Made by a program: the position numbers and the translations under genes. The notes under the pieces are model-generated. The model had not been told where the DNA came from. It worked only from the letters and a program-made list of their open reading frames with translations, and made no database searches. Shown piece after piece: positions 8,569 to 60,400 of a stretch of DNA of 64,000 bases. Within the stretch, counting starts at the first letter, position 1. Each line of letters opens with the position of its first letter. The stretch spans positions 9,801,001-9,865,000 of the forward strand of contig NC_134025.1 in assembly GCF_964204645.1 (NCBI RefSeq). The letters are read 5' to 3'. Origin of the DNA: Tubulanus polymorphus (taxonomy: Eukaryota; Nemertea; Palaeonemertea; Tubulaniformes; Tubulanidae).

Positions 8569-11500
8569 TTAGCTGACGATAGCTTTCTCCAGCATAAGTT
8601 GTCGACTCTGCGGTAAAGAATCGTATAAGTCAAATCCGAGATCACTGGCTTCATTTGCTTTCAAGTAGAATAAAACGTGATGACCAAATTCCTGTCAGAT
8701 AGAAGAATATAAACATTAGTTTATGCTATTCACTAGAACATCTACAATTGATTCTGCACTACTTGTTAACATTGATTTGAAATGACAAAATTTGATGGTC
8801 GCTTGGCTGGGTTCCAAAAAGAGGACACCTCTGCTCATAGCTGCCTCAGTTTCCAAATTCCCTATCTTTATGCATTGTTTTCCCCGGTTCTTCAAAACAA
8901 ACCAAAAATGAAGGTCCCAACTACCGGATTAGATGGTGTCTACTGTAACGGAAATTTTTAGCCCACTTGGGACTTTAGTCCCAGCGGGCTATTGCATTCA
9001 CTTTTCGTCCATCGTCCGTCCGTCCCTCCGTAGACGGAATCCAGTTATTTTGGAAAGTTTTGAAGACGCTTCAAAGTAATGTCTTGATATTTGGTTCATA
9101 CATGTACCTACCCTAGACACATCTTCAGCCCAAAAACTGGCCCTGCCAAAATCAGCATGTTTTACACATTTTTGAACGTTTTGAGGGAAATTTTGAAGAC
9201 TCTTAAATCAATTACCTTGATCTTTCGTAAATATTTGAATCCCCAAAGGGCCCATCACCATAAGAAAAATTGGGTCGATCGAACTCAAGATGGCCATCCT
9301 GTGACCTTTTTAGTGCCCAAAAATGTAAATTTTGGCCCGAATTCTGAGTTCTGTAGCTTCCTACTGGTTTGCCATTTCTCATTGCAATTTGTGATATGAT
9401 TATGGTGAGTTTCAATGTCATTGGGCTTTGCATATGGTCACCAGGGGGCGCTGAATAGTAGAATAACTTAGTATTTCCATATCATATTGGTACCTAGGCA
9501 TATTTTGTTACCCCAATCAATTACAAAATTGTAGCTGCTGACATGTGCTATGATTGTGGTGAGTTTCAAGGTCATTGGATTTTTTCAAGGTCATTAGATG
9601 GGCATTGAATATTGAAATTGTTAGATCATCTGAAACCACTTCCCAAGTGGGCATGGTGTCCCTGGACCCCTAGTGTGTTTAGTTGCTATTGGTCATTTTC
9701 AATAACTACATCAATAAATACTTAGCCGTTTTAGGCTTAAAACATGTTTGCAAAACAGAACCCTGATCCAAGGAATAACTAGAAAGATATTTACCTTATC
9801 TTTATTGTTGTTTGCATGTTTCATCATTTTCAGTTTTATTTGCTGGTATTTTCCATCTTGTAAATAGATAAATCGATTGACATGGTGAATGGCTATGACA
9901 TACATCAGCGGTGACCATTGTCTTCTCACACTTGGCATCACTAAAGCTTTGTAGTACATTTCTAGCAATTCGACATCTGATTCAACTGGTTGCAAGAAAC
10001 TGTTTAGGTTGATTGGCAGCTGAAAAAAAGATTTATAATTTGAAGACCAAACATCTAAATAGGAGAGGGAAAATCTAGAAAGCTCCATACATACTGGCTT
10101 TAATACACACTCGCACACACAATCTTTTCTTTGCTTAACCTACGTAATGTAATTTAGTTTCATACTTGAAAATGGAAACAGAAAATTTACCTCTTTCGTT
10201 GTTAAACTCATTGCGCGAAGCACACTGGCATATTCACCCCATATAGCTCTGCGGTACTTAATATCATAACGTTGTTGAATCGGCATTAGGACAAAGGAAC
10301 CAAAAACGGCATCACCAAACGACACTGCTTCGTATTGCTGTAGTAATGACGTATACCTGCAAAGAAATTGAGGGAATAGAAAGCATAATTTTGTATTAAA
10401 AGTAAAACATCAGGGTTCTTTATGTTCCAATAGTTTGTTACATCCTGCATAAAATCATGGTGAAAAGTTTTGATTATATCTGTTCAATCGAATGCATTTT
10501 TGATGAGCTTCTCTACGATATAAAAGCGAACTTACAAGTCATAGAATGAAACTATTCCAGGAATCTTCTCTTCGTAATCGGTCTGATTCTGTAGAAGTGG
10601 TTTGCAGTATTCTTTTAGCAATGCGCACAGGTAACAGTGTATGGTACTGTCAAGGAACAAGTCACTACCTAAAAGTAAACAATTTTGAAAAGCTGTATCG
10701 AGCTTAACACTTGCTACGTGGACTTGTAATGTAAATATAGCATTGCATACCAGCAATGAAACAACACATGAGTCTTGTAATTCGAGTGGCGACTGATATC
10801 TGATTCATTGTTTCCGGTCTCCATACATGAAGCATATAAATCCATCGGAGCATATAAGCGACCATACTAATCTCGGCTGAACTGATCGTGTCGGGAAGCG
10901 TCTGACTAGGGTCACTGGAATAAACGGAAACACAGTTTAGAGGAGTCAAACACATAGGTTAACATCTATCGCCATTCTACTGTACAGTGAATTTACATTT
11001 TCAACGTTTTCTGATAGAGCTGAAGTACAGGGTAGAACATCCAGTCTGTTGGCAATAATGTCTGTCCTATAGGTCCAGTTTGCATACTGTTAATACCAAA
11101 ACAAATATGTTCAACAACACATCTGAAAGAGAATTTTAAAATACTAATTACATCATCAATAAATGCTACACGCTTCAGAGATGAAAGCTTTTTTATCACG
11201 ATATGATAACGAACCTGGATTCGTAGAGACGATTTTGAATTTCTGGAAATGTCTGTAGGTACATTGCTCTAATACCGATTAGGTTTTCCACGCCATCTTG
11301 CAGCAGTTGGCAACGTGTCCGATGCAATTCTTCTCGCGTAGCGCTCGGTAAACTTTTGACCGATAAGCTCAAGTCCGCTATATCGAAACTGGATAACTCA
11401 TCGGACTCATTTTCCCTGAAGAAAATAATGAATACCCTAATTCAATGATTCAAGGATTATCAATAGCTCCAGGTTTAAGGCACCCCTCCCCAGATGTCGT

Positions 11501-14474
11501 ATGATAAAATACGTGTCTCTAATGAAGAACAAGTACTGACATAAACTTACATAGACAAACGTTACAACATAACAAATGACATAAAACGACATCTACTTAC
11601 ATGAAGAAGTCTTTATTGAATAGCACCGTAGAAAGCAATTTGTTAGCTAAATATTCGTCACCACTTTGAAGATGAGGAAGTAAATGTAATGTGAACTGAT
11701 GGACAAATTTCATATAAATCGTACGCTGAAATTAAATCAATGAAAATAAAGAAGTGTGTTTTAACTGGTCCGTTTACTAAGTACAATGTATACGCATGTA
11801 CCGGTACATACATCTGATGATGTCTGAAGAGCCATTTGCGCTAGAAAACACTGAACATTGAATTCAAACTTTGTGAAATAGTTTAACACAAGTGCCATCG
11901 GTCTGGAATGAACTAACAGCCTCATATACTGTAGAGTGTCGTCATCGGTCAGTACAAGTGGAAATAACTGTGATGAAAAAAACATGCAAATTTTTTGATG
12001 ATATCATACAAATGAAGATGATTCTTAGCGATTTTTATTCATAGATACGACTTTGTTTTGATTGTAGTAGCTGGTTTATCTAATTTTTCCAAAGACCATA
12101 CCTTGTCTATCATGCCCTTGTGAAGACTTCCTAACTCAAGCAGTAAACGTAGTACAGCTAAGATAAAATTATAAGGCGATACTTCAGTTAAGACAGGGGT
12201 CAAAAGAATAGATTTCTCCATGAGAGTGGATGATGGCTGCAACCGATTGCTTTTGAAATCCACTGGTTCGACTATCGCGCCGTAATCGGGATTGTTATCG
12301 CAGCGTTCACGAGACTGACGCAACGTCGACGACAGCTGTGACGAATATCGCCTATATAAGAAAAAGTGAAATGAGACTTCATTTGAGTCGTTCATAGCAC
12401 CCAGTTTCGTGACATTGCCTATTCAACAAACCTTAACCCAATATAATGTGATTTCATCGCCTGGCAATTCAGACATGGTCGAAGTAAAAGGCTGAAATCT
12501 TCTGCTAATTGAGTAACCTCAACAGCATTGTAGCCTGGCTATAAAAAGACATGTTTATGTTATTCAGTTTATGTTAGAGTAAGAGCTGGCAAATATGAAC
12601 AGGCGTTTATTTTAAGAAGTGAACAAAACCTCACCTGAGTTTGTATTCTTGATAAGTAAGAGGATAGCAAATTTAACAACGAGGATAACAGCATAGTGTC
12701 CATCCTCTACAAAAAAAAAATTCCAAATTTTGACTCGTAAATCCATTCTGAAAAATTTTATTGACACCCAACTTATTGGTTGTAATGAAGAAATTAAATC
12801 GATTAAGAGTTCAAGACTTTTTCGTGAAACCCTGTCCAGTATTTGCTCATTAAGGTAAAATATTTTGGTTCTGAATGGTTATATCCGTAGTATGTGATAA
12901 TAAAGTACCGTATGATAATAAAGTACTGTATGTACCTTTGCAGGTGTTGTCAGTTGTGAAAAACTACGCAGAGCTTTTTCAACATTGAGTAGAACTGGTT
13001 GCAGTAAGCCAGCTACTTGGCTCCATTGAATTGCTGGACCAGCCAGCTCTTCATCATCAGCATCTACATCCATATTATCAGCATCCAGTGATCTGAACAT
13101 AAAACATACCAGTATATTCATTTCTGATGAAGTTTATGCACCTTATATTTATGACTGTCGAGACAATTGCAAACGAACAATTGAGTTGTGTAGCGCAAGC
13201 TGACACTAATCTATTTACACAAAATACCTAAATTTGACTTTCTTTGAAGGATTTGGTGAACTAGCAGTGAGAACCATTGCCTCGAGTAAACACAGAATAG
13301 AGGCAGCCTGCGTAATCTCTAGTGGATCATGTTCATTTGACATCGATGAGACTTGCTGCAATTTTTTCATCAATACCGCATACAATTCACTAGAATTACA
13401 CAATCACATTAGAATTTATGGGTATTGCTGAATATTCTTTTTGGGAATCCAGATTTCTCACTGGATGGAATAACCTACCTAAATGATTCTGTTGCTAACC
13501 CATAACATGTAAGCACCGTCCATGTCCTATAGCTTTCGATCACTAAATTAAAGGCCTCCGAGTGGGGTAATTCCAGATCGCTGAAAAAGATTGTACATTT
13601 ACTTTGATATCAGTGCAGATATGCTATAGTATCCAAGTTTTTTATGTATTCAATGGGTTATTGAAATGCTAAGATGATTCAAACAGAACTTACCTTGTTT
13701 CTACAGCAACATATCGAGTTATACAGTTCATCAGTTTATATTTTGAAACCTACGAATGGAATAAACATGATAAACTAAGTCCTACACTAAAATGAATCTA
13801 TGATTAATTAAATTAGATTAAGCCATGTATCAATAGCTCTGTCATAGAACACTGTCAGCTTCTTAAAACAGAAATGAGAGGACTCACCAGCATAGCAGCC
13901 ATATGTCTTCCCATTGAACAGATAATTCGAACGAATTTCATAGCAGTTGGGACAGGAATTCCGTAGACTGAAGTCACCGGCGATGTTACCGATTTCCAAA
14001 CGACGGGCAGAAATTCTACCATTATGCAATCGATCAATGTAGAGTTCGTGAAGATCTACAAAGTATCCAAAGGGAAATGCGAAAATGAAGAATACGTTTT
14101 GAGTAAATTATATACAAGTCATTTCAGAACAAGAAATGGAATTGCTTACAGATATGTTGTCGACAAGAATGAAGAAATCAATACCTGATAAGCGGTTTGC
14201 TTAGAATGCCGGGCGATTCTGATTAGTACTTCCAGCGCCTGTATCACTGAGTCAGGAGGTGGTTTACATGTACATATTATGTACTTCAGACGTTCAATAA
14301 GCATCATTCTCAATAAGCCCTAAAACAATAATTTGTCCGTAAGTGATATCTTCAGTACTGGTATGCCAATTCAATGTAGTTGCGAAAAACAAAATCGTTT
14401 ACTTTGATGAGATCTTCCTTGACCACATCGGCATCAGTTTTCTGCGGCTTCTCTGGGTCGTCATCATCTTTGTT

Positions 14475-14513
<39 letters not shown>

Positions 14514-17039
14514 TTCGATAACAGGTTGCAGTGTTGAGAATTCTCTACCTCTGTACCAGGTGAAAACGCTGTCAATGCATTCCTACAGTTAGAACCATGG
14601 ATATGCACACAATAAATGCTAATGCAAATATCTATAGGTTTTAGTATTCGATTTTTAAAAAATATAGTCAGTTTAACTGTAGTTTTTATGCAGGAAACAT
14701 TCAGAGACTTTCCATACCTCATCTATTGAATTCGTCATCAGAGCATGCAGAGTCTGCAATGCAGCACACATTACGGATTCAGTGCTATCATCGAGCGCCC
14801 AACGAATAAGAAACGTTATTCCCGCGTCGAGTAATGTAGGAACTAGACACTTCGCTAGTGATGACGTAAACATGCCCAATTTGGCCTGAAAATAAATGAT
14901 TATTCAGACTGTAGAAGGAAGGGTATGTTCAATCGAAACGAAGTTACACGGAATTGCACTTACGTTCGTTATGATTTTAGTTAAAACATTCAGAGCCAGA
15001 ATACGTTGTTGAACGATTGCGCTGCGCGCCAGTTGAAATAAGTCTTCAAGAGAGTAGCCAGCTCTCTGCAGACAGGAAAATATTTCTGACATTTCATGCG
15101 AAAAATGTACATATTACAGAAAATGCTGTTAACTGATATAAATTACACTGTATTACCTCTGGTTCATCACCATGGTGATGTAATCCAAGATGAATTGGTA
15201 TATCAGCATCGCTAGATAAAACTTCCCCTTGTAGATTAAATCGGGCTTGAGTTGCTTTCTATGAATAAGAAATTGAATTTCGCTATAAAGCAGTCGATAG
15301 TTCAATTCTCAACATTTGTTCAATACATACCTTACTGTCAGCTGCGTCAGGCAGAGGAAGGTCTTTCATCATCCATTCAAGTTTGTCTTGCTCCATTTTA
15401 TTCATGTTCACCCAGTCTTTACTTGGTTTCACTGGTAATGGTATACCATGATCATCTAAATTGATATAGGCTCTCAAAATCAAAAATATTTTCATTAAAA
15501 AAATAATCATGACTGAGACAAACATTTTGCACAGTACTAACTGGCTTCCTTCCTTTCATTATTTGGTCTTAGTTCCTCGGAAAATGTGATGTTTTTACTT
15601 GTAGAATCCATTATCTCAATTTTTGGATGAACTTCCGATTCAGATTTTCTTGCATGTTTTGCTTTTAGAAATTCAACAATTTTTGGGTCTGGAAAGAATA
15701 ATATAGGCTTATAGTATGAAGCACATAGGACATGTACCGGGTATTTACTGGTATTGTATTATTACAGTCATGAATACCTAATGTTTCCATTAGGTTCTTC
15801 TGCTCTTCAAGAATTTCCGACTCAGACATCGCAGTCAACTTTTCGACGTTTTCTTTGTGAATCGTTTCCATATCTTTAGCTATATCTGGCTCTACCTCAT
15901 CTCCCTGACTAGATACAGCCGAGTTCTTATCATTTCCAGCTAAACAAAAATAAAATAGTAAGTTGGACCATTCAAAACATCCAGTTGAAATTGCACATCT
16001 CCAGATCAGAGCCACCAAAATGCAATTAAAATCCTTACAGGCTTTTTGAAAACACGAATGAGTTTTGTTTGAAAATCTGCTCGTTTTCTGTGTTCTGACA
16101 ACTACTCCGAGTTCTTCCGGTGACATTTTCGTCAGAGACTGGGCGAAAAGACTCTTCTTTTTACTTCCTTTTTCTGCTGGATGATGCTACAAACGAACAA
16201 AGTTGTTAATGAAAATCGACAAAATCACAGAGAAACTCAATCTATGGAAAGAACTCGATTCATACCTGATGTTCACCAATCTGAAAGGGCTTTGGGAATG
16301 CGTGACCTTTAATGCCAATAGGAACGCTGATTGGAATCTCAGTAGTATCCCTTTCCACAATTTCTGTGAGTATCTTACTTATGTGACGATCATGTCCTAA
16401 AATCAAACATAAGATATTAAGTGTCTTACAGGTAGGAATGAGTAACTGTTGAAATTCGAAATATCTGGTATCTAATACTGTCTAAACGTGATTCTGGGTC
16501 ATCAATTTCTTCATCCTGCTCTAGATCAGTTTTACTCCTTTGTTCTTTGAATCTCGACTTTTTTGCCGGAGGCTTGTTGACTGGTGGTGCCGGCAATGTG
16601 GATGGCAAACCTATGCAAATATATCAAAAGACCTTACTATCCCTGGCTTTCCCATTTCAACCCAAAACCCTACTACTTGCTGTTTACTCTCCTCCTACCA
16701 TACCATTATCTATTCTAATCTAGTAAGTGTGAATTCAGGTGTAAAATTGGTCTAACTAAACTATTTTTTAGGAGAAAACTGTAAGTTTTTCTGATTAGGC
16801 CTTCTTTTTGTGCTTCAAGGAAACTTGCCAGAACAAAATTAATTATTCACTGATTAGATATTACCATCTAACTGGACAATGTCTTTTGTCAGTTTTGAGT
16901 CTTTCAACACTTCATCTGACAATTTATGCTTATCGGCGCGTTTCACCACAGTTGCTGCTGGTGTAACTTTTCCGGATAGAAATGCTTCTTGAAGAGCCAG
17001 CAGGTCTTCTTCGGTTTCTTTCGTGGTGGGCCGCTGCAT
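8569..17039 (-). CDS. RPAP1: RNA polymerase II-associated protein 1, 29 coding exons, 1402 aa
   Basis: RPAP1 helps assemble and import RNA polymerase II and links it to Mediator. Coding exons, high to low: 16865-17039, 16479-16610, 16266-16396, 16039-16186, 15778-15939, 15542-15688, 15331-15470, 15157-15258, 14964-15065, 14718-14885, 14403-14582, 14185-14319, 13888-14055, 13694-13749, 13479-13580, 13228-13389, 12936-13092, 12635-12706, 12438-12538, 12102-12351, 11812-11967, 11601-11725, 11215-11415, 10997-11122, 10751-10914, 10536-10668, 10191-10356, 9795-10019, 8569-8691. They sum to 4209 bases with every junction in phase. Diagnostic stretches are [14 protein letters not shown] at the N-terminus, [11 protein letters not shown], the RPAP1_C signature [32 protein letters not shown] (exons 8-9), [15 protein letters not shown] and the C-terminal [12 protein letters not shown]. 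The exon 6-7 junction uses a GTTAGT donor and a weak acceptor and is the least certain. Exon 11 carries an in-frame (GAT)n run. The start methionine aligns with the family start. An upstream acceptor at 17053-17054 implies a 5' UTR exon. Antisense AATAAA at 8472-8477. Confidence 0.95.
8955..9674 (+). mobile_element. Non-autonomous element with inverted ends, copy 1 (RPAP1 last intron)
   Basis: It starts tttttagcccacttgggac and ends cccaagtgggcatggtgtccctggacccctagt. The motif GCCCACTTGGGA near the start is repeated inverted near the end. The interior holds the phrases gtgagtttcaaggtcattgg, accagggggcg and aacttagtatttccatat, which are repeated in tandem in copy 2 (59364-60329). It has no transposase or other coding region. 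It lies wholly inside the last RPAP1 intron (8692-9794), in antisense orientation to that gene. It could be a MITE or a Helentron-type element with a central tandem core; no clear target duplication is visible. Confidence 0.8.
14468..14514. repeat. (ATC/GAT)n microsatellite inside RPAP1 exon 11
   Basis: About twelve consecutive ATC units occur on the plus strand, GAT on the coding strand, in frame to encode a poly-aspartate run followed by [12 protein letters not shown]. Vertebrate RPAP1 has an acidic linker at the equivalent place, so the acidity is probably functional while the length may vary between individuals. Confidence 0.9.
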
Positions 17040-17737
17040 TGCTCTTTGCGTTCTGTATGAAAACAAAAAACCAATGCAATACCATACGAGTTAATGCTCA
17101 GCTAACATTAGATAAACATCGAGTAATCTTTGAAGTACATACACTCCAAGAGATTGAGCACAACGCTACACTTGACAATTTACGAATAATTCACTAATTT
17201 TCACACGAATTTCGTTTTTGTGGGCGCAACCATCTTGAATCTGCGTACGAGTCCGGATCCTGAATTTAGCAGTGCTTTTTAGTGCTTGCCCGAAATCGGC
17301 GTCCTGAATTTAGCGCTTGCCGAAACCAGGAAGTAAAGTACATGACAACAGAAATAAACAAATTGTCCCTGAAACTGCTGGTACTGACGCTAAATTTGAA
17401 GATTCTAGCCCCTGTATTCAGATAGAAGGTGCGTCAATGATATTTTCCCAAAGAAATGAATGAATTGAGAAGTTTGAAATTGTTTTTGTTAATTTTCTGG
17501 ATGCGTAAGCATTGTTTGGGCGCTTGTTTCGGTCTAAACTTTCAATCAAATTCAATTAATTGTATTCCCAGTTTTGTTCTATCTATGAGTTTTCACCTTC
17601 AGTTATGAGTATCCTATTTATGGGTTATTGTTGTATGTTTAATCTAACCCTTTGTTCAAAGGAGGAGCCTACTACACTTTATGTACTACACCAATCAAGC
17701 ATACACAGCATTGCTTCATTTTTTCTAGCATATCACA
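17040..17737. promoter_or_regulatory. Divergent promoter region between RPAP1 and DRC5
   Basis: The two start codons face away from each other across about 700 bases, so both promoters must lie here or the region is a bidirectional promoter. On the RPAP1 strand a YY1-like AAGATGG occurs at about 17229-17235, and a splice acceptor at 17053-17054 points to a non-coding first exon near 17150-17230. No TATA box is obvious for either gene. Confidence 0.55.
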
Positions 17738-20700
17738 ATGGTTCCAAAACCAGCTGAGACGGATTCGCCTATACCTGATGGTAAATCGGAGGCCGGCTCG
17801 CAAGCTGCTGGGGAGGACGACAGTAAGAGCGTCAAAAGCGGTAAAAATGTTGCATCGAGAGCGTTGTCCGGAAAGTCGGGAAGAAGCAGCGCCACGAGTA
17901 AAACCGTTACGCCGGAGCCATCGGTCGACGGAGACGCGTTACTCGACTTGCGCAACATGCGTCGAATTATAGCTGAAGATCCGGAATGGTCGTTAGCTAC
18001 GGTTCCATTGCTCGGAGAACTCTGCGTGAAGCATATTGTTGGCAATTTTGAATGTAAGCTATTCAGATTTTCGTTTTCAGTATTCTATATCAAAGTCTCT
18101 AGAGTTTGATATATGAAGCATTTTTGGAAGCTTTAAGATGTCGAACTACATTTGATGTTGATAAGCTTCAACTGCGGCCAATGAAGTGGGCCCCTGAAAT
18201 AAGAACCCATTTGGGTTTTTTTAGTTCTATTTCGATTATTAAAAACTCGCAGTTATAAGGATTTACCGGTAATCAAAAAGGTTATGCAGTAAACTCAAAC
18301 TCTAAACCTCAACGAAAAGTTTGATTGAATTCATACTAGAATAATGAGCTCTTGCTTAGGTTCTTAACAAGGTACCGTGGTAGTTTTATTGAAATTTTTA
18401 AGCCTATAAAAACACGTATTAAGATTCAAATTTCTCTATATTTCATTTCCAGTCAATTCAAAGATAATCAACGACCTTCTGCCTAAACACAAAGCGAAAG
18501 TTTTAGACAAGATTGCTGTTGGAATTCCGTTGAAAGTCACCGCTCAGCTCGTCGAAGACGAAGGCTACTGGAAACGATGCTGTAAATCGCGTTGGGAAAT
18601 CTGCGACGTGTCACGGTACGGCGCCAGCTGGAAACGAATGTACTTCGAACGAAATCTCGAAGAGATCATCGAACACTTCGTTCCCGAACAGACCGACCCG
18701 ACGAAACTGCAAGAAACGCTGCCGTTGTCGACGAATTTTGTCCAGCGTTTAATCGTCCGGCAACTACTGCCGCCGGTGAAAGAATGCAAAGACGTCGACG
18801 ACGAGGGTTCAGACGCGGGCAGCGACGCTGGCGAAGGTCCCGAAACCGATCATTTCGACTTCTCGAATGTGTTGCCCGCGTTGCCCAATCTCGTCGAGTT
18901 TCGCGTGACGTACGGCGTACGCGACTGCGGCATGAATTTCGAATGGAACCTCTTCCAGTTCACGGCGAAAGACTGTCTTCTGTTGGCGAAGTGCATCGCG
19001 AACTGTAAGAACTTGAAAGTGTTTCAGTTGCATCGCAGTAAAGTTGACGATGATAAAGTACGCGTTTTAATCAGTCACATCTTAGACCACCCGGGACTCG
19101 TCGAGCTCGATCTGTCGCACAATATGATCGGCGATCGCGGAGCGCGCGCCATCGGCAAGTTTTTGAACAATCGCAGTAAGTTGGTGAAATTGGACATCAG
19201 CGATAATCAGATACGAGCTCAAGGTGCGCAGGCAATCGCTCACGCGCTGATGAAAAACACGACTTTGACCAGTTTGAACGTTAGATTGAACCGTCTGGCG
19301 GACGAAGGCGGCGCCGCGATTTGTCGCGCGTTGTTGAAAAATTCGACGCTCGTCGAAATCAACCTCGGCAGCAACGAAATGACCGAACCGACCGCGGCGA
19401 TGCTGTCACAAGTCGTCGGTAAAAACTCGACTCTGACGACTTTAGATTTGTCTTGTAATAGATTGGGACCGGTAAGTGTATTGTTCTCTATGCAGGAGAT
19501 CACGCGTTTGGGAATCAGCATTTTAATGGTATAGATTTTCATTTGGGTCCAAGCAATGATTTCTCTTTTGGTTTCAAATATATAAAATTTTGGCCAATGA
19601 GAAACTGGTTAAGTTTCATGATCGAATATCTTCACACTGACAAGCCCTTCCCATTCCATATAAAAAGCCTAACACTAATGATTAGGCTACTTACCCAGTT
19701 CCCCAACTTAGTATGAAACCGAGGATCCAGAATCATATTTCTTAGAATAGGGGTTGACCCTGTTGTTTATTTGATTGGTTTCCCTTACAAACCCACCACA
19801 CCAGCCGGGAGTGAAACAGGGGGTTTGATTTTAAAATCAGAAATCCGTGTACTTGTATAGTTGTGTGATCGGAAGTGGAATTTACAGAATTTTTTGTTTA
19901 AATCAAAGTACATAATTGGGAAATTCTATTACGATTCATTCAAACAATCTTCCAACCAGTCTGAACCGGCAATCGACTGATTGGGGTTAGTTTCATTGGC
20001 TGCCTAATCTAAATACATCAAATTTTGGAATTTTGTCAATTTTCATATTTTGTTGGTCATTTTCCCACGTAGGCCTATAGTCTGGAAATTTATTAGTTCT
20101 TTAATTACTAAGAACGCAGGATTTTTTCAAGAAAAAAATGGGAGGGTGAAGGAAAAAAATGAAAATGAAAAAGAATTTTTTTTGTAGTAGGCATTTCAAA
20201 ATGGAAGAGAACAGGGAAAAAAAAATTGCTTTGTCATTTAAGTATTTTTCCACATTTTATTTTTGAAATTTGATGGTTTTTGCAAAATTCTGGGTGCAGA
20301 TCCGTGCTCCAAGTAATTAGAAAAAAATGCCTAACCGTTTTAGGGAGTGGATATTATGCAAATGCGGCAGCATTGTGGTAAAACGTTATTCCTTAATAAA
20401 ACGGTACGAATTTGAGCGTTTTTTGTTGGTCAGCCATGCTGCTCCATTGATAATTCGAAATCTCTGTTTCACTACTACTTCATTCACTCGCTCAAAGATG
20501 GCACGTGAAGTGTTCCTACAGTCGTTCTTTCCTTCTCACCAGCTCGCGAATCTAAATCCGAAAAATTGATTCCTAGTTAGATATTTTAAACCGCACGCTT
20601 TCAAGTTCGCCGTATATGGGCGTTTCGTGTTACAACGTTTATTTCATCATCAAATAACAAATGTATATAAATAGATTTAATTTACTGCGACATCGAACGC

Positions 20701-27451: not shown

Positions 27452-27856
27452 AAAACCAGAAAACTTCAATCAACTAAATGAACTATGAATATGAATATCA
27501 TCGTGTATTTCGCTATATTATTTAATTGTCATGTATATGGGTTGTGTATTTATTTGCCGAATAAGTAAATGCTTTGTAACGAAGAAATTATGATTAAGAA
27601 TTATGTATGAATTGAGATAAACGTCGATTTTGGCCGTCATTTGTATTTAGGATAGATACATTTCTGTTGGTAGGATTTCATAGATTTGAACTTAAGAAAT
27701 CTGAATACACCAGAATCCGCTCAAATTGGACCTTTTGGGACCGTAAAGATGTGTCCGACTTTATATTGATTACCGAGTTGAATGTTATGAACGGAGTTAT
27801 CCGAGTTGATCGGATCCGACTTTGCTTATTCCTTGGAAGGTAGATACAGATGACGC

Positions 27857-28090
27857 AGGGGCAGATTTACGGGGTGGTTTCGGGTGTCCGGGCCCCTGGC
27901 TTATTCGTCAAGACATAAATTGTTAAAATCTGTAAATTTGACAATTATATCTTCTCGGAAATTGCATCTTTTTCGATGTATTTCTTCAAAAATTTCTAAC
28001 ACCGCCTCGTGTGGTCTTTCCGAGAATATATTTTCTTTTTTTCCGAACCCAGCCTTCCGATTTTCCTGTAGACCCATCCCTGTAATTTTC
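27857..28090 (+). repeat. Interspersed repeat family R2, copy 1
   Basis: Its opening aggggcagatttacggggtgg with tttcgggtgtccgggcccctg matches 56637 onward (ggaggggcggattcagggggtgg, tctcgggggtcaggacccctg). The matches continue: tgttaaaatctgtaaatttgaca against cgttaaaccctgctaatttgaca, and cttcaaaaatttctaac against cttcaaaaatatctata. Neither copy encodes a protein I recognise. Confidence 0.65.
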
Positions 28091-30558: not shown

Positions 30559-30665
30559 CTAAGCGGCCACCAGTCTATGTATCTAGCCAATAAGATGCGT
30601 AGTGAAACTGCCGGTGAAAACCAACGTATCTGATTGGCTTAATACATAGACTGGTGGCCGCTTAG
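30559..30665. repeat. 107-bp near-perfect hairpin (foldback MITE-like)
   Basis: The arms 30559-30600 and 30624-30665 are inverted copies. They start and end ctaagcggccaccagtctat / atagactggtggccgcttag and differ at only a few positions, around a loop of about 23 bases. Pairing continues imperfectly outside the arms (caaggcaatg / ttggcaacttg region). It is too long and symmetric for chance, and is either a recent foldback element or a hairpin RNA source. Confidence 0.85.
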
Positions 30666-48600: not shown

Positions 48601-51600
48601 AAAAACTTAGTATCATCACATTGGTGATACAAAACCAGTTTTTATAACCAACAAACACATTAACTACGGTCTCAAGATCTAAGTATAGCTCAGACTGATA
48701 CACCATGGTAATTTCTATCTTAATATGCATATCATACAGAGCTGTAATTCATTTCGTAACGAGCGGAAGTCATCTCGTACACAAATCACTGCGCGCGCTG
48801 AGGTTTCAATCTGTGGGATTCGGAGAAATATGAAAATGACATCGACACGCAAATTTACTCCCGTTAGACAAAAACCTAATACGCCGAGTATAGTGTCTCG
48901 CCCAGCAGTAAATTGTGTGTCACGTTGCGAGGTGATGGATGGTGCCTTAATGAGTATAGCGCTAGGTGGTTTATCAACAAGGATTCGGGTAGATATTTCA
49001 CCGTGCCACATCATGTGATTAACACATCCTTCCTGGTAAATATTCGAGTGAAAACACGGCCAATTATTAAACTTTCCCTGTCAGACCGACGCAAAACACG
49101 AATACCAATGACATGTCGGACGACGCGTCGGTGATATCTGCTTTACGTTTTATGAACTGAATTAAGAAAAAAAACCTCGCTATTTCGCGCTTCCGGAATC
49201 GCTAACAATCACACCGTCGTTCGTCGTAAAAGCTTTTTGAAATTTACGTTAAAACAACTTCTCGATTGAGCCAACGAAATGAATGACCGCGCGTCGGCTT
49301 TGGTTACGATTAACACAAAGTAGCACTTAGCGATCATCATCGATATTAAAGTTCATCTCCTTTGAATATCAAGGACCGAAATGTTTTGGTCTTATATCGT
49401 TTCGTAGTTTTGCTTATTGCCATGGTCAATCTGTCGGTTTCTCACGGCATCAAGTCTCGGTTAAATTGGCTGGAATAGGATCTCCTGCTCAAGAACAACA
49501 CACACTCTTCATTTGATTACTGACTGATAAAAATAGATTACGGACGACCACACGTATTGGTAACAAACCTTCTATGGAGAGGCCTGGTGTGTATATTGTC
49601 GTGGAGCTCTTGCGTGGCTTCGCACAGAGTCATTTTGTTTTTTTTCCGTTTCGGTTTCGGGATAATCATTACACCGAAATGGTAGAGCGCCTACGGGTGT
49701 GATGGCATCATCCGCGGCAAGTGATTGAAAATCGGTGAATCCAGCATCAGTTATTTTGCGCGGTATTTGATCGCATCAAAAAGGTGCGTACGTGATCGGC
49801 TATTCTCGGTATGTTCCGACGGTTAACGAACAAAACGACGCGGGATTTAATCTAATTTCCTATATTTGCCGAGCGATACATGCGACTTTCGGTAAAACCA
49901 ACAGCAGCGGAACACGACTACGGAGTCATCGTGTCAACGAAGTGAAACTAGTGATTTGTCATTTTATGTTTTCCGTCGTAATAAATGTAATTGACTGACT
50001 GCCGTGGGGAATTTAGTCGATTTTGCGAATCAGAGATAATGCACGAAAAAGCGCCGTGGGTGTATAGACTTACTAAGGCACAGTCTACAACTCGGCTTAG
50101 ACGTCACGTATCCATTTCTTTTAAGTTTCCCCAAGACTGATAATGAATATTGGGTACTATTTGAAATTAAATCGTGCATTCCAAATCTTAACATTTTCCC
50201 AAGAAAGTTTACATTTGCCCCGAGTTCAAATTCTACAGAATTCTAGAGTTGTCGATGTCATTTTCTGCTACGCAGAATAAGCCCCATATTTCTTCATTAG
50301 CGCTTGTAAACGCACTGATAAATTATGAATTTATGCCGTTTTAATGTTTCTCTAACCATGCAAATATCCGTGCCACCGTAATCACGTCGACGAGACGAAT
50401 TGAACACGATTCATTCACCATAAACATCACGTCATGAACGTGACCGGCTAATTTTTCAAAAATACGTATAATCGCAGCGCACGATGAAACCAAAATAGCT
50501 TTTAAGTCTCGCAATTCAAAGCCAATCAAAATCGCATCCTCGCCTTCAATTAAAACGGCGTTATTGGTCACGTCTGCATTTTTCGGTGTATTTATTGACG
50601 ATGATCGCGACGCGCGGTTGACGTTTACGACACTTTATCTATAATTGCCTGTTTCCTCGCAAATCCTTCCTTATACATATCGCGGAGAGAACGGACGAGC
50701 CTATCGCACGGGGCCATTCTGTACGCACGCCGGGGCATTGATATCACCGTCAATATACCGAAGGCTTTTGCGACCGCGTTCTCACCCAATCAATCAGTAT
50801 CGATCATCAATCATAGGCACCGCTCGATGTTGCCATAAGTCGATATGTAGCCAATATCGATGACCGATAAAATGCGGGAAGTTTACGCACCAGGTCGACT
50901 AACTTCCTTGTATGTATATATTGAATATAGACTCGTGCAGAGGAGCCGTGTTTACCAGGTGCGGAATAAGAAATACGAGGCGGATAGTACTTTGAAGGTT
51001 AACTTAATAAATAAACAAGCTTATAACTTAAATAAACAAGTTAACCTATTAAGTACCGTCCATCGCGTTTTACTTATTGAAAATAGACTGCAGAAATGAA
51101 TAACCAATGGAATAGTTTTGAAATGAAACTGAGAATCGGTTTCGGCGGTTTCGTCCAAGTGGTCGATAAGTTTGGAATATTTCGTGAACGGACTAATATC
51201 ACGGATCGTTTTCTGTCTTCAAACGGATGTCCAACAACAGCATCACCCGAATCTATAAAGCGACAACTGAAATTTGTGGAATTGATCAGAAACTTTGCAG
51301 TTCATCCAAACGATCGGCAATTTTTATTGTTTTCTATCGTAAAATGTTTAGGAAAATGCGACGCAGCATAGTCTTGCTCACTCGCAAGGGAAGAGCCTAG
51401 CAAACGCTAACAAGCAAATTATATGACTGTGGTCGTTTGCGAAAGGACACAAAATATGCCAGACACGCACTGGGAGCAATTCGGGGAATTTGCGGCTATT
51501 GTATGTCCAGCAGCAATTAATTGCCTGTAGATATTGTCACAATATAAGGCCAGTGCCACATATGGCGTTCGGATAACCATGAAAATGTTCACTTCATCAT

Positions 51601-54600
51601 TCACAAGTAGCCAGTGTCAATATTGGCTGTGGCGACCGCGATGTAATAACGTCCGGTGTTCCTGACCGTACATAACTATTAGCCGATCTATAAATGGACG
51701 TGACGAACATACAGCAGTGGTACAGTTCAAACAGTTCTAGCTCATTCCTGACCCCCGGAACCCTTCAAATTCGATTTGTATCGATTAGCGGTGTGGCGAT
51801 TGGGGATTGAATGTTTGTATTACTCGTGCGAACGCGATGAAAATAGATTCAATTAAACAATGAGACGACAATATTCTGATGTTCCGGTCGGATATTGAAT
51901 TGGCAATTGGTGGCTGTTACGAATCAGCATTGTATCCGCCACACTCTCATAGGGCTAATATATTTCAAATTTAAACTTTTATTCATCGAATCACCGGAAC
52001 ACGGTACATGGAAATAGAAACAATTACCGGAATACGGTAGATAGAAATAGAAGATATAAGGCAAACATGCATAAGTCGTCTTGAGGCCCAAACAAATATA
52101 CTGTTAAAGCCGACGCTATATTTTGCCCAGGTATCATTTTTCCTGTAAAGTAACGGCGACAGAATCACATCATCGAAGATGCATTATTGACGATCGTACC
52201 TCCCTCTATGATCCTGGGTTCAGTTTCAAAAAAGGATTATTTCCTGAACTGAATAAAGAAGGAAAACCACGATCGATAGATTCTTGATGGCGTCATCGCC
52301 ATCGTAGTCAGTCTCGGATTTCTCATTTTCAGGTATCATTGATTCGACACTTGATAGCAGACTAGTGCGTTTCTGTTTCTTTCAGTCCCAGTTTTCTTTA
52401 CTTATGATCTTTTGATTGAATTCCCGTCGACGATATATTGGCTTCCAATCGGGCCCGCGTTCACCGGATCGATCGTCTAATCGCGCGTAATTGAATCTTC
52501 GACAATCGTTTCCACTTCTTACCGCAATTTCTCCACACAAATATGTCAATAATCATTATATTAATGGGCGCATTCCAACATGCCAATTCTCTAGTTCTGT
52601 CGACTTCAATTCGTTTTATAATCATCGTCGCCGCTGAAAAATTTATTTCTTCGCCGCATTGAACGACGTCTCAACGGTTATAGCCAGGTAACCGTCGGAA
52701 TTTCAGTGCCGAATCAACATCTACTCGAGTCCGTTAAAGGAAACTGCTGTAGTTCGCTCAGAAGTGTGTGCGTATTCGTCGTCTTTGGTGGCTACATCTC
52801 AAATTACCGGAATAGCTTCAGCTTCGCGTTGAATATTTCCAACGCTCACTCGAGCCAAAACAACACCGCTAATCCACGAATATCGTCGTGTATTCCCTCT
52901 TTCGTCTTTAACAGTTCTTATGGCTGGTTTTATAGACTGGTATTAATCCGGCAGTTAATTTAGGTAATATGATTCAATCCTAGGTGGAATTTAAAACCAA
53001 GCTATTCAAATGTCTACTGGGGTTTGAGTTATATTTTTTTGATATAACGAGTCATGCAATTCATCGCAAGTTTTCCGAAAATGCTAATGAGTCAAGCCAC
53101 CAACGTGAGTCATCCGAAGGTTGTATTTTCTAGTATATGTATGATGGCGGTAGGATGAATCAAGTTTTTTTGAACTTTTAAATCACGAAAGGTCACCGAC
53201 GATAAATGTTGAAATACTCATTCTTAAATGATATGCAAATAACTCGTACAGGTCTAATATATTTACCGAATGCCTGTTACGACGAAAAGCTATTTCCAGT
53301 ACACAATCAGATGCATCGTGACCGGACTAAATAATAGACGATTCGATTCTAACTTGCATGAAAGTGTTGTATTCGCATGAATACAAATTAATTAACAGCA
53401 AGTCGCACACAGTACACGGCATTCTTCGTCCCGACCCTGGCGGCGCTTTCACCACGTGAACCCGTGGGAACGCATCAGGTCTGACCCCAATCAATTCTGG
53501 TTATTAGCTTGTCATTTTTCATATGTGACCGACCGTGTATGTATTGAAAACTATACAACACTCAACTGCGTCGGATTCCCAGCGGAGCGCATTTCGCATT
53601 CCGACGTCGTCGGTTTTTGTTTTTCGCGGTGGAATATCTAATTCGGCGCACGTGGCTTGTCAAATCGCTCGGGACCCTCTGCACGAAATAACCAAATGCT
53701 ATTTCAGAACCTCTGAATTTTACTTCCAAACTAGAAACGCATAGCCTATAGGCTACAAATGATAAAGCGTTATGATTATTTTACAGTATTTCGCTTTATA
53801 AACACATAAATTATTATCATTATCATTATGGTTATTATAAATGCGATGCAGATGTAACATATACAATAATTGCCGTAGATAATTATATGCATTCTCTAAA
53901 GTAATCTTTTCCAGTTTTTTTTCTCTGATTTTATCATAAAAGGCGTAAAAGATCGCAGTTTTGATGATGAAAAGTTTATGCGTTTTCACTTTCATACATT
54001 TATTTTCAATCTAAAAATTTTAGTTGAAATCATTACCTTTCAATCGTGTTGCGTATATATGTCTAATTTTCGTTGTTCATAAAAGTGAAATAGAAGAGAA
54101 ATTCAAAGCCTTACCGGTGCCGGCATCGCCGTAGACTCATGTCAACTGAAAGCACACCGCCGCTGCTAGCTATTCCACATCTCTCTGAGAGCAAATGCAA
54201 CACCGGTCTGCGCGCGAGCCTCAGTACCGTCGTATAGTACGTACGGTATCGGCTACGACAACGGAGCGGGCAAAACGGTAGGAAAACATTTGGTAAATGA
54301 ACTGAGTTAATAGCCTGCTCTCTCCTCTCTCAGTTTGTCTCTCTCTCTGTGACACCGCATTCAAGACACGTCATATATGTTGAAGAATATGTATTGATCT
54401 CGTACGGGAGAGACAGAGCGGAGGGAATCTTTTATTATAGCCGCCGGCCGTAGCCACAACGACGATTTTACTCGGTGTCTTATCCGGTAAAATGCTTTAA
54501 TCCGAGTGCATTGGATGGAGTATAGTAGATTGCGTTCATAAAAAGAAGCGACGTAATAAATTTGCTAGCCTTCTATGATCTAATCCCAAGAAATGGAAAC

Positions 54601-55660
54601 GTGCAGCTGCTCTAGAGCTAGATTATTTTTTAAAAAGCCACGAGAATATATAATTTTGAAAACAAATACGTAGATTCAATACGTGACCAGGTGTTTCGGT
54701 GACATGAGATATAAAATACCAGTTCAGTCACGACTTACGTAGATATACGTTTTTAGTACGACGTTAGCCTATTCCGCTAATAAAATACAGCAAATGACAC
54801 TTTTCTGTTCGAGTTGATTAGCCTAAATGGTCAAACTACGGTCAAATTACGGTCGTTAGCCAAATTTATTCATGCAATCATCCAATTTGATCACTAGCAC
54901 CACAATTACGGATTTGTGTGCCATTCTGTTAGGTAACTAGGTTAAAGCAAATCACGACAACTCTGAGATCTTTTTGCTGGAACTTGATACTAAATACTAA
55001 GCGTTTTGTGAATGATCTTATCGAAATTTTACCCTTGGGCGCGTAGAGGGTTTTCTTTTTGTAGGATATGTATATATATATAAGTAACATTGAAGATCGC
55101 CTTGAGCCACTAAGTGTTCGAACGAATACGATATCATTCGATTCATTATTGGTTCAGCCTATGGCAGGTAAATAAACTACAATACTATACGTGCCGTGAA
55201 ATCCTATATAGACCCTACGAATGTAAATATCTTACGGATTACAAGAAAATACACGGTTCCAACTGTTATTCCTTTAAAAAAAGAATCTTATTGATGGATT
55301 CGCCTCGCGATAAGAACTGCGTTATTGCCCATCGATAAATCCTTTGCGATGAAAGCTTAATATTACCTATATTACCATATTACAATGCGCGATCGGCAAT
55401 AGTGTCAGGAATTATGTTCATTATGTTCGTCGATGAAATTAGACCACGTATGCATCGAAGACTTTGTTTGACGAACGAAGTAATTCGAAACGCAGTTCTT
55501 TGTCAAATACGTCACCGAGAAATTCTTTTATGGCATGGGAACATTACCTATTGCGTTATTCATGAAAACTAAGCTCGAACCACAAATTCAGAATTTGCAG
55601 TCGAAATACGATATTTACCTCATCACCTGTAACTGGATCTGTCTGTTGGTCGAGTCTCAT
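39671..55660 (-). CDS. TMEM151: TMEM151-family transmembrane protein, 569 aa, two coding exons
   Basis: This is a multi-pass membrane protein of a family expressed mainly in nervous tissue; biochemical role unknown. Exon A (55619-55660) gives MRLDQQTDPVTGDE. Exon B (41338-39671) continues in phase with QRPIRQSFCGSLRRDTHWKC, and E-QRPI matches the vertebrate TMEM151 N-terminus. Two membrane segments follow (CLILTLLIWGCMAAITWC and YIPVAFVVMLYLVYLVECW), then the family core WWKAICYHYVRRTRQVTRY, GDAFTTTQVYYERVN and YMETREGMDL. A second hydrophobic pair lies near HPVFWVASIFMMSWPIRVLIEY. The tail has VPSYSEVLLMD, a Lys/Arg run (GKRRRKKKKKSKR), Ser/Pro-rich sequence and a terminal ETSL, a class I PDZ ligand that vertebrate members also have as I recall. 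The intron is 14.3 kb. Exon A has its own acceptor (55696-55697), so a non-coding exon lies further upstream. Which paralogue it is cannot be said; invertebrates may have one. Confidence 0.92.
46065..46197. mobile_element. Possible hAT-like MITE, 133 bp
   Basis: The ends are cagggccgta and taataaggccctg, giving a CAGGGCC inverted terminus. This is a common hAT start. The flanks agtctaac and agtttgat agree only partly as an 8-base target duplication. The interior has agggcac words similar to the block at 3765. Confidence 0.4.
50986..51056. repeat. Small foldback repeat
   Basis: Left arm agtactttgaaggttaactt (50986-51005) and right arm aagttaacctattaagtac (51038-51056) are inverted copies with a few mismatches. 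Inside the loop taaataaacaag occurs twice. Possibly a very short MITE. Confidence 0.5.
54115..54126 (-). other. Possible alternative first coding exon of TMEM151
   Basis: A minus-strand ATG reading MPAP ends in phase 0 at a strong donor (CACCG|GTAAGG). Joined to exon B at 41338 it would read MPAP-QRPIRQSF, a family-like N-terminus. The sequence upstream is relatively GC-rich. It holds a GAGA tract at about 54319-54351 and a TATAATAAAAG on the minus strand at 54429-54439, which suggest a promoter. The 55619 exon is the better match, so this would be an alternative start or nothing. Confidence 0.3.
54300..54440 (-). promoter_or_regulatory. Possible internal promoter with GAGA tract and TATA-like box
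   Basis: On the minus strand, TATAATAAAAG (54439-54429) is followed by a purine-rich stretch that becomes GAGAGAGAGAC and GAGAGAGGAGAGAG near 54351-54319. This is the kind of layout found at animal core promoters, and it precedes the candidate exon at 54115-54126. Evidence is motif-level only. Confidence 0.25.
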
Positions 55661-55699
55661 GATTCTTCATGACTGCCGCTGTGTTCATGAGCAGCCTGA

Positions 55700-57415
55700 A
55701 AGAAACGAAACGCCGTGATTCGCATCAGTGTCGATTTTAAAAGAACATCCCGACGTTTTGACTCGAAAAAGGGTTAGATGTTTAACCCACACTTTTTGAA
55801 AACCATCGCACCTACTCGAAATGTTAGTCATTCGATTGGTATATCTGCACGAATTTATACCGTCGCAAATTGAAGCCGATTGGGAATTGAAGCAATTATT
55901 CAGCTATCACTTTAAAACTTACACGCGTTTCTCGATGATGTCAACACATTAGCAAATCAATTGCAAATAATTGATATGCTGTCGCTATATTCATTTCCAT
56001 CGCGTCTCAAAACGGATAAAAACAATTAGTCAAATTATTTCCATTTTGCATATGGCACCCTTTTTCGTGACCGTGCATTCGTAATTTTTTCGGAATTTCA
56101 TCGACAAAAATCTCGAAAATATTTTGTTCGAAAGCACCAGAATGCCGTACCTTACCTTTGGTTCTTAATTCCCAGAAAGTGACTTAGTTATTTATTCCCA
56201 GAAAGTGAAAGTCAATTAATTCCAGTTTTAGGAAAAAAGTTATATATACGAAATCCGATGAATTCGAACCGGATTGCGCGAATCTATCTAGTATATACCC
56301 TTGTAGAATTCTTCGTTAGTCTAGAATATTGCCTCAATTTTCAGTTTCATTTTAAAAACGTACTTGTTTGATTGTTTGCATACTTTCTGTTTCATCTGTA
56401 AATGTATCTGTCTCCCACGTTAATGAACGATCATAACCGATCGTTCATGGTTCCCATACGCGCGCGTCTCGCTGGGCGAAACGTTCGTTCAATTCGTCGC
56501 GTTGAAGTATCAGAAATTGAAGCGCTATCTGGGGATAACATTTTAAAACACGATGTATCAATGGCTTGTAAAAGTGAAGCATCACTGACGCTATAATGAT
56601 GGAGATAAATGCAACATTGTTTGAGAAATCTTACGGAGGGGCGGATTCAGGGGGTGGTCTCGGGGGTCAGGACCCCTGCCTTCCCGTTGGGGGTGCCTTT
56701 TTAAGACTTAGATCGTTAAACCCTGCTAATTTGACACTGTTACTTCCGGAATTTGCTTATTCGAGGGATTCCTTCAAAAATATCTATAACCGAGGGAGGG
56801 ACGACACCTTTATTGCCCGCTTTTGACAGTGGCAGCTTTATATCAAAGAATGCCTTTTCTTTTCTTCTGGACTCAGGCCTTTCCCTAGATCGGCCACCGG
56901 ACTCATTCGTAAATAGGGATAACGTTAAACTATTTCACCAGAATAAAGTGGAATATATCGTAAAAAGCGTTTTATTCTTGGATAAAAGTAAAACTCGGCT
57001 AGACGTCGAAAAATCAATGTGGTTTAGTTAGTTCCAATAAAGCTGACCCGACACAAAAAACGTAGCGTAGAATTACTACTGTTCAATCCGATCTCGAAGA
57101 CCAAGAATGAAGACTAAGCGAACGAATGTGTCTTCACGGGCCCGTTTATGGTCAGAATATTTGAAGAAATAAATTTTATGATTGGATAATGCGGAGATTA
57201 TTGATAGAACGCTTGCACAGGGAAGTGAGCGAAGGACCGGAGCCGGCCGGCTATCTATCGCTGAAAGGCGGCGTCCGCGTTTAACCAGTCTTCCGTACAC
57301 CGTTTGCCGTATTTTAGCGTCACTCAACTACACAGCTTTCGATGACGTTTCGATTTACGTGTAGAGTAGGAGTACCACCGAAACCAGGAAATAATCGAAA
57401 TAATCGTCGAAAATA
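55700..57415. promoter_or_regulatory. Divergent interval between TMEM151 and SNX3
   Basis: The TMEM151 upstream exon(s) and both promoters must fall here. No convincing core promoter motif is visible for either gene. It also carries repeat R2 copy 2 (56637-56900). A doubled word attcccagaaagtga occurs at about 56170 and 56200. Confidence 0.45.
56637..56900 (+). repeat. Interspersed repeat family R2, copy 2
   Basis: It matches 27857-28090 from its first bases (see that entry). The alignment has several indels and fades after about 200 bases. Open frames of 76-92 codons cross it but do not match each other's reading in the other copy, so they are not conserved. Confidence 0.65.
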
Positions 57416-60400
57416 ATGGCGAGTGGGGTTACCGCACGAATAAATCCCACTAAAAAGCAGACTTTAGAGGATGCATACTCTGCCCCTGCTAACTTTTTAG
57501 AAATAGATGTAAAAGATCCGCAAACTCACGGCGTTGGCAATAAAAGATACACCGATTATGAAATAAAACTACAGGTACCAACATTTCTTCTTGCCTCACT
57601 TTCTTTCTACATTACATTTGTTACTGTTCTTTGATATACTTATAGCGACTGTATTTTGGTGGAGTGCACCAATGACGCATGGGCACATATAGGCCCAGTT
57701 AACCTGATCGTTGGTGGTAAGCTTTTTATAATCGGATGGGCTTATACCGATTATACCATTGAGTGGTTTGTGAAAATATCCGATCGTGAAACTACACCAC
57801 AGACAGGTTACTGACTAATATAAGCCTAGGCTATGAAAATTTGTTTCATGAATATAGAAAAGTAGTAGGACAGTGTTCTTCAACTCGTTGATTGCACAAT
57901 TCTTGGTTCATTTGACTCTTTGGGTTTTAACATTGCGAAGTTGAAGCAATTTCTCGACTCCGCATAGTGAAATTTAACCTTTGGTTTTAGATCCAGTTTA
58001 TTCATGAGTAGTTTATATGTATTTTTGCTGAAATTGTACTGTTTTTATCTTATTGCAGACGAACTTGCCAGTATTTCGAGCGAAAGAGTCCAGTGTTCGA
58101 CGACGTTACAGTGATTTCGAATGGTTGCGAACTGAACTTGAAAGAGATAGTAAAGCAAGTGTTAATATAGGGCCTGTGATTCTTTAACCCATTAGCACTC
58201 AAGCCGCCTGTATCCGCCCTGCCTATTACTCCTCTAGCCGCCGGAATACGCCCTGACAATTTTCTCCTATGCTGCACGAAAATGGTTATTGTGGGATTTG
58301 AACCCAATAGCATATGATAAACAAGACGCCCAAGTCCTCGAAATACCATACAGAAATCAACATCTTCCCATTTGAAATTCTCGAGTATTTGGAGTAAGAA
58401 CATGACAGATCTGAGCGCTCACTTCAAACCCAAGTATGTTTGGATGAATTTAGGGGGGGGCACAATTTTGGTGGCCCACCTCATCAAATCTTATATCATA
58501 TGAGAGACTTGCCTATTTATTATTACAAAATAACACAAACTTGTAATGTATGAAAATAAACAGCAAATGAGCCATTAGGTATCATGATTAAATAACGACT
58601 TTCCCTTGAGTTTTCTGAGGAGTAATTGACACTACATAGTCTGAGCGCTGATTGGTTAAATAAAGATCAGTTTCGAAAAAATGATAAATAATCCTCAGTT
58701 TGTCAACTGAACCGCTAGAACTTAGTGTAATACCCATCCAGTGGTTTCAACTTTTTGTTGTTGACAAAAAGTAAAACAGGCCTAATGCTTGTCATGTTGT
58801 CTAAGATGTGAATACCGTACTTCATATTTCCAGATAGTGGTACCTCCGCTACCGGGAAAGGCTTTGAAAAAACAATTACCTTTTCGGGGTGATGACGGAA
58901 TATTCGAGGATGAATTCATCGAAGAACGGAGGAAAGGATTGGAAGGCTTCGTGAATAAGTGAGTGCCAAACTTGAATTAGAAATCGATTATTGAATGTTT
59001 CATTATTGAGATTTAATTGACGTGAGCCGTGCTTTGCCTTTTAAACGCGAAGTACCCAATCATTAGGCTAAACAAAAATGATACCTTGTTTCTCCGCAGC
59101 GGTCGGGTCATTTTTGTAAAATTTGATAGAATTTGTAAACAGTTCATTTCTATAGCGGCCGGGTCTGTTATGGTAAAATTGATCACGATTTAAAAAAGTA
59201 ATGTATAGGGTAGATAGGCGGCCGGCCGGGTCAACATTTAAGCTCAGCAGAGCGGAGAAACAAGATATCAATTTTTTTTAGCCTTATCTACATTCACTCC
59301 TGCGCATGGAACAGGCTTAATCAAATTGGGTGGCGGGACCTTGAAAATTGGGTAGAAAATGAATTTTTAGCCCACTTGGGACTTTAGTCGCAGTGGGCTA
59401 TTGCGTTCACTTATCGTCCGTCCGTAGACGGAATCCAGTTATTTTGGAAGTTTTGGAGACGCTTCAAGGTAATGTCTTGATATTTGGTTTATACATGTAT
59501 CTACCCTTGACACATCTTCAGCCCAAAAACTGGTCCTGTCAGAATCATGATCTTTCGTATGTATTTTAACCCCCCCCCCCCCAGGGCCCATCAGCATAAC
59601 AAAAATTGGGTCGATCGAACTCAAGATGGTCGTCCTAGGACCTTTTCAGTGCCCAAAAATGTCAATTTTGGCCCGAATTCTGAGTCCTGTAGCTTCCTAC
59701 TGGTTTGCCATTTCTCATTGCAACTGCTGATGGGTATTCTTTGGAAAGGGATGTTTTATACCTGAGACAGGTATTTTTGATCAGGCAACTATGACGCAAT
59801 TGGCGGCTATCTTAGTGTCATCAGTACCCATTCATAGGTGGGAAAAAGTTTTTCGACATTATATTGAAACCTAAGCATATTTTGCTACGACAATGAATGA
59901 CAAAATTGTAGCTTATAACGTGTTCTATGATTGTGGTGAGTTTCAAGGTCATTAGTTTTGGTATATGGCCACCAGGGGGCGTTGAATGATACAATATCTT
60001 AGTATTTCTATATTCTATTTGTACCAATAAATATTTTGTTACCACAATCAATTGCAAAGTTGTAGCTCATGGGTTTTGAATATGGTCACCAGGGGGCGTT
60101 GAATAGTAGAATAACTTAGTATTTCCATATTAAATTTGGTAACGAGGCATATTTTGTTATCACAATCAATTACAAAATCGTAGCTGCTGACATGTTCTAT
60201 GATTATAATGAGTTTCAAGGTCATTGGTTTTTGTATATGGTCACCAAGGGCATTGAATATTGAAATTGTTAGATTGTTGAGCATTTGAAACCACTTCCCA
60301 AGTGGGCATGGTGTCCCTGGACCCCTAGTTTCAGTCAGGGTAGATAAAGCATTACCAACAAGCTTCCACAGGTCTTTTGGCTTCAACAGGTCTTCTTTGG

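Follow-up and report, generated by a model that had tools for sequence, protein, structure and literature searches.

A Helentron/HINE family in the nemertean Tubulanus polymorphus with a coding partner that carries the same ends and tandem array

Helentrons and their non-autonomous relatives, HINEs, are known from mite, mosquito and Drosophila, where they display palindromic subterminal inverted repeats and strings of T at their boundaries, and published Helentrons insert at T-rich sites without modification of the target (Thomas et al. 2014, PMC4067079). HINEs bearing tandem repeats are common in invertebrates, the Pacific oyster being the well-studied case, in which an autonomous partner could not be tied to Cg_HINE (Vojvoda Zeljko et al. 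2020, PMC7492417). Here we describe a family of this kind in Tubulanus polymorphus, two copies of which lie within a stretch of 64,000 nucleotides (contig NC_134025.1, positions 9,801,001 to 9,865,000 of assembly GCF_964204645.1; hereafter the window). The family is ordinary in kind, a Helentron/HINE with an identified coding partner, and is unmatched in the literature searched, a search with the element sequence having returned no match. Two of its features are uncommon: an array common to coding and non-coding forms, and the fact that most of the CTCF-like core words sampled belong to it. New here are a coding partner whose genes are flanked on either side by that array, and a CTCF-like site in every array unit.

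Copy 1, which is internally shortened, lies in the last RPAP1 intron at positions 8955–9674 (+ strand, 720 bp if the bounding Ts are counted), while copy 2 occupies 59364–60329 (+ strand, 966 bp) in an SNX3 intron, between an exon ending near 58962 and the next starting near 60567. A sequence-only reading of the window had reported two related elements at these coordinates, and its limits, orientation and ends are borne out, as is its placement of both in introns, since host exons were found on either side. Those of RPAP1 are TPR_RPAP1 exons at 10140–10406 and 9711–10136 (minus strand) and an ORF at 8569–8694 (minus strand) which, judged against the human C-terminus, we take to be the last exon; those of SNX3 are PX-domain exons at 58032–58187 and 58786–58962 and the next exon at 60567. 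Adjoining RPAP1, an apparently intronless 737-codon open frame at 5829–8042 (+ strand) shows ankyrin-like repeats by eye. The elements were said to encode nothing, and indeed an ORF search of both copies found no long ORF in either, nor does the consensus of full-length copies contain one of more than 94 codons. In a BLASTN comparison the two copies are 86–87% identical over three blocks (best E 4e-90), with no alignment beyond the limits of the element; the flanks, which if shared would have spoken for segmental duplication rather than mobility, are therefore unrelated. The ends of copy 1 are identical to those of > 1,000 copies elsewhere in the genome.

Both copies have the same plan, on the + strand throughout. 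In copy 1 a 5' hairpin, AGCCCACTTGGGAC-TTTA-GTCCCAGCGGGCT (8960–8990; fold -9.9 kcal/mol, z -3.8), contains the subterminal inverted repeat GCCCACTTGGGA (8961–8972); the remnant of the tandem core (9394–9635) amounts to ~1.5 units of 154 bp, with the CTCF-like core CACCAGGGGGCG at 9439–9450 in the remaining unit; and the 3' module (9636–9673) consists of the stem CCACTT-CCC-AAGTGG, the subterminal repeat TCCCAAGTGGGC (9641–9652) and the end ...GGACCCCTAG. The corresponding parts of copy 2 are a 5' hairpin at 59369–59399 (-11.5 kcal/mol, z -6.7) containing the 5' repeat at 59370–59381, a tandem core at 59838–60290 of about three units, one of them shortened, with CTCF-like cores at 59970–59981 and 60087–60098, and a 3' module at 60291–60328 with the same stem, the 3' repeat at 60296–60307 and the CTAG end at 60325–60328. 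The two copies thus differ in unit number as had been noticed, about one and a half against about three, although the period is about 154 bp and not the 130–150 bases first given.

A search of the window's own genome (267.8 Mb, 77 contigs) with both ends, as the sequence-only reading had suggested, uncovered a dispersed family. The 3'-end 25-mer CCAAGTGGGCATGGTGTCCCTGGAC occurs exactly 1,059 times, a firm lower bound on 3' ends, and the 5'-end 59-mer 265 times, against 0 occurrences of either word reversed, numbers well in excess of chance; the proportion of copies in which these words are intact leads to an estimate of roughly 800–1,500 recognisable copies. We read 42 copies with both ends. 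Among C1 copies picked by the 3' end alone, 14 of 22 measure 1,200–1,300 bp, with a median of 1,251 bp. In the typical copy (~1,255 bp) four 154-bp units stand between a 5' module with a hairpin and a 3' module. The size of 0.7–1.0 kb reported earlier is thus correct for both window copies but not for the usual family form, relative to which they are shortened. The family 5' end, TTTTTAGCCCACTTGGGACTTTAGTCCCAGCGGGCTATTGC, forms a strong hairpin in which GCCCACTTGGGA lies within a few bases of the end; this repeat recurs in inverted form as TCCCAAGTGGGC, ~22 bases short of the 3' end CCCCTAG. The 'inverted ends' of the earlier description are therefore real inverted 12-mers, but subterminal rather than terminal. 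The 6-bp 3' stem CCACTT/AAGTGG is present in most copies, with a fold energy not below that of shuffles. Full-length HINEs differ by 6.3% pairwise and by 3.6% from their consensus, which points to a fairly young burst. Among the matches listed, exact 5' ends lie at 8.1–24.4 of 32 Mb on C1 and at 6.4–24.1 of 31.9 Mb on C2, exact 3' ends on C1 begin at 6.3 Mb, and family ends avoid the outer chromosome parts on C1, C2 and C3.

The array (period ~154 bp) comprises mostly four units, with a range of one to five. Comparison of 22 copies with four units each gave a mean difference of 7.5% between units that occupy equivalent positions in different copies, compared to 21.3% for units at different positions within one copy and 21.2% for different positions between copies. 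The four-unit cassette must therefore predate the copies, each of which inherited it whole from a common source. Array length varies mainly through loss, the short copies being deletions. This overturns the earlier suggestion of a central minisatellite that expands between copies.

The mode of insertion could be read from a copy on C6 (L009, 5' end near 11228020) which is nested inside another family member. In > 40 uninterrupted members the empty site reads ...AATCAGCAC-TTTTT-ACACATTTTTGAAC..., its left part reading ...CAGCAC, while the filled site reads ...CAC-TTTTT-AGCCC...CCCCTAG-TT-ACATG...; this empty site is paralogous, a single position represented by > 40 relatives. The filled site has five T before the element and two after it, compared to five in all in the empty site. 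The two additional T are either element ends or a TT duplication, and nothing longer is duplicated at this site. The C6 comparison and the base frequencies at the ends together indicate insertion at T-rich or TT sites with no ordinary target-site duplication, so that the check for target duplications or empty sites proposed at the outset came out as insertion into T runs, with nothing duplicated beyond a possible TT. A second empty site, 85% similar, lies at window positions 64–185 and corresponds to a family copy in L031. These positions belong to a repeat unrelated to the HINE, of which the relative at L031 carries a family copy and the window version is empty. At one locus (L002) two copies are joined head to tail by CCCCTAGTTAGCCC, a junction as expected of a rolling-circle dimer; adjacent insertion also fits.

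The mover, which the sequence-only reading had left as unknown, can now be named. A profile search returned 58 Helitron_like_N matches in the genome. (The scores of the Helitron Rep matches form at least two classes, one near 195 and one near 100 bits, and several rolling-circle lineages thus coexist in this genome.) The proposed search for a longer relative with Rep and helicase between the family ends led to coding copies on C2, C1 and C5. The C2 copy (C2:17225543 to about 17236924, 11.4 kb) has both family ends exact and contains, in order, the 5' end, array, a partial second 5' segment, Rep/helicase/endonuclease ORFs, array units and the 3' end, so that array units stand on both sides of the coding block. 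Its Pfam matches are Helitron_like_N (4e-25), PIF1 (3.5e-27) and Exo_endo_phos (2.2e-5), the last at 24.7 bits just above the Pfam cut-off of 24.5. The Rep is an HUH nuclease with two Tyr and the helicase is PIF1-like, and in the copy read the AP-type endonuclease follows the helicase directly in a separate frame. Motifs in the coding copies include HIH, YIVSY, Walker A/B and, from the endonuclease, GDFN and SDH; upstream ORFs gave no Pfam OTU match for the OTU-type protease that some Helentrons encode. The reading frames are interrupted in the coding copies seen. Compared to the HINEs, C2 is 85–87% identical end to end over its first 1.1 kb and about 90–92% over the last 0.13 kb.

The C1 coding copy (minus strand) runs from a 5' end at 12821799 to an exact 3' end at 12735011, a span of 86.8 kb, and shares its array and spacer with C2 at 93–99%; the 5' modules of these two are 98% alike and ~93% like those of HINEs. 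The C5 copy has an exact 3' end near 13001227. As the flanks of C1 and C5 differ immediately after CCCCTAGTT, the two are separate insertions. In a degraded coding copy at C1:12887149 the family 5' module breaks off after its first 259 bases and continues directly into the same coding region. Family ends were absent from four other Helitron-Rep loci (L061–L064, 10 kb of each read), and the family 3' end from a divergent C6 endonuclease fragment (L075).

The C1 and C5 copies represent a larger form, with an extra segment common to both at one internal point and missing in C2 (L066:792–811). Its left part (1.35 kb) is 97.5% and its right part (0.85 kb) 98.1% identical between C1 and C5, and it spans 21.3 kb in C5 (12979149–13000412) and 61 kb in C1 (12735818–12796802), where it is lengthened by nested family copies. 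Given the different outer 3' flanks, the segment probably travelled with the element. We considered the possibility that C1 and C5 were sisters devoid of the family 3' end, and rejected it when the exact end was found beyond the common segment. Both copies have been disrupted in other ways. The C5 copy is split, the parts matching L065 2560–3119 and 3111–3330 lying 0.4 Mb apart on opposite strands (C5:12964768, +; C5:13368267, -), which resembles an inversion of ~0.4 Mb with a breakpoint inside the element. It also holds a 5.4-kb insertion (L069 313–5691) with a 506-codon ORF, which may be another transposon as its ends share a 31-base inverted repeat. The C1 copy is interrupted at L067 (C1:12804300–12810299) by DNA with several ORFs on the opposite strand, one of which (~405 codons) resembles, by eye, a stretch of B-family DNA polymerase from a large DNA transposon.

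We are highly confident that the window copies are HINEs and that larger elements with the same ends supply in trans the Rep, PIF1-like helicase and AP-type endonuclease that move them. For this we have exact common ends, a coding partner, a position-specific cassette, insertion into T runs and unrelated flanks, and the original proposal of a non-autonomous mobile family of Helentron/HINE type is upheld by the partner with the same ends, the T-run target and the dispersal of copies. Points that weigh against it are the 3' stem, which by itself does not surpass shuffles, the endonuclease match barely above threshold and in its own frame, the interrupted reading frames of the coding copies, and the two additional T, which could be a TT duplication. 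The sequence-only reading had allowed that inverted ends would also fit a MITE, a short TIR element that a DDE transposase moves by cut and paste, and both the 12-bp inverted repeats near the two ends and the lack of coding capacity are compatible with one. However the repeats are placed asymmetrically, one arm at the 5' end and the other set back ~22 bases from the 3' end, the empty site reveals no fixed-length duplication (at most a possible TT), and the partner encodes Rep, helicase and endonuclease instead of a DDE transposase, making a MITE highly improbable. A canonical Helitron, rather than a Helentron, would share the Rep/helicase partner and a 3' end of CTAG, which fits CTRR, but should begin with TC and not TTAGCCC and enter A|T rather than a T run; as it is Helentrons, moreover, that feature an endonuclease domain and subterminal inverted repeats (PMC4067079), we regard this assignment as quite unlikely.

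Spread without transposition, as a satellite array carried by segmental duplication or unequal exchange, might be suggested by the tandem units and by some copies lying adjacent head to tail. It is scarcely conceivable for a family of > 1,000 dispersed copies with sharp ends, flanks unrelated right up to those ends in the copies read, an empty site, and units that are position-specific and not homogenised. It is also unlikely, if slightly less so than a canonical Helitron, that the coding copies belong to another Helentron family which merely picked up these ends: the extra internal segment in C1 and C5 and the different point at which degraded C1:12887149 joins the 5' module could be so explained, but the family 3' end is exact at three loci and the 5' end at two, and the same array and spacers are collinear at 93–99%. 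Thus the large coding elements most likely move the window copies, and the HINE family as a whole, in trans. From known Helitron biology, the Rep would nick at the 5' T/AGCCC end, the helicase would then peel off one strand, replication would proceed to the 3' hairpin and CTAG end, and the single-stranded or circular product would be joined into a TTTTT target. As the genes of the partner are flanked on each side by array units, a single deletion of the coding block would suffice to leave a 5' module, an array and a 3' module, which is a HINE.

Every unit consensus contains TGGYCACCAGGGGGCGTTG, which agrees with the JASPAR consensus for CTCF at 16–17 of 19 letters, compared to at most 13 of 19 in 3,000 shuffles of the unit; we therefore call the motif CTCF-like, a candidate site by resemblance. 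A typical copy has four such sites in one orientation at 154-bp spacing. Genome-wide, the core CACCAGGGGGCG is found 4,686 times and the reversed word 4 times. Among the first 100 occurrences listed on C1, 65 have an exact family end nearby on their own strand and another 10 are in 154-bp register, hence at least three quarters of the sampled exact cores belong to the family. Nine isolated occurrences in the first 1 Mb of C1 are unlike the family. The genome encodes a zinc-finger protein (C3:3431265) whose best solved match is CTCF, ~52% identical with fingers in register. The unit consensuses share an invariant run of 20 (P 0.09 for one run, P 0.003 for two runs together), and it is weakly supported that the CTCF-like block may be under selection. 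A second conserved block, CTATGATTGTGGTGAGTTTCAAGGTCATTG, e.g. around window positions 9400–9425 and 59930–59960, contains TCAAGGTCA, the extended half-site recognised by ERR/NR5A nuclear receptors.

It is conceivable, though we consider it doubtful, that the Helentron spreads a ready-made insulator, i.e. four same-direction sites at 154-bp spacing that would be bound by host CTCF. One rolling-circle family would then have scattered thousands of potential loop anchors mid-chromosome, and the array might be kept for the benefit of the element, via open chromatin, protection or a transcription boundary. If bound, the cassette would make it possible to ask whether chromosome folding can be rewired by a transposon of the rolling-circle type.

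Like the published HINEs and Helentrons, this family has non-autonomous copies that outnumber coding ones, a Rep/helicase/endonuclease partner, subterminal inverted repeats, T strings and a T-rich target; it differs in its fixed four-unit 154-bp array with CTCF-like sites, present also in the coding partner, and in a 3' subterminal repeat located ~22 bases from the end, compared to 38–60 there (PMC4067079). Cg_HINE and the pearl elements of bivalves are alike in having two modules with subterminal inverted repeats around a satellite-like tandem core, and in inserting at oligo-T targets without duplication. In contrast to Cg_HINE, the partner here is tied to the HINEs and the array is common to both, and since the coding and non-autonomous forms share both ends as well as the array, the origin of the small form and of the array can be studied in one genome. 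DINE-1 / INE-1 of Drosophila is likewise a high-copy non-autonomous Helentron with a preference for TT and enrichment in part of the chromosomes, but has no four-unit cassette, and to our knowledge its sequence is unrelated to the family described here. The rodent B2 SINEs are a mobile family that has spread a CTCF-like motif in bulk; these however are retroelements with one site per copy, whereas a copy of the present family carries up to four candidate sites in the same orientation.
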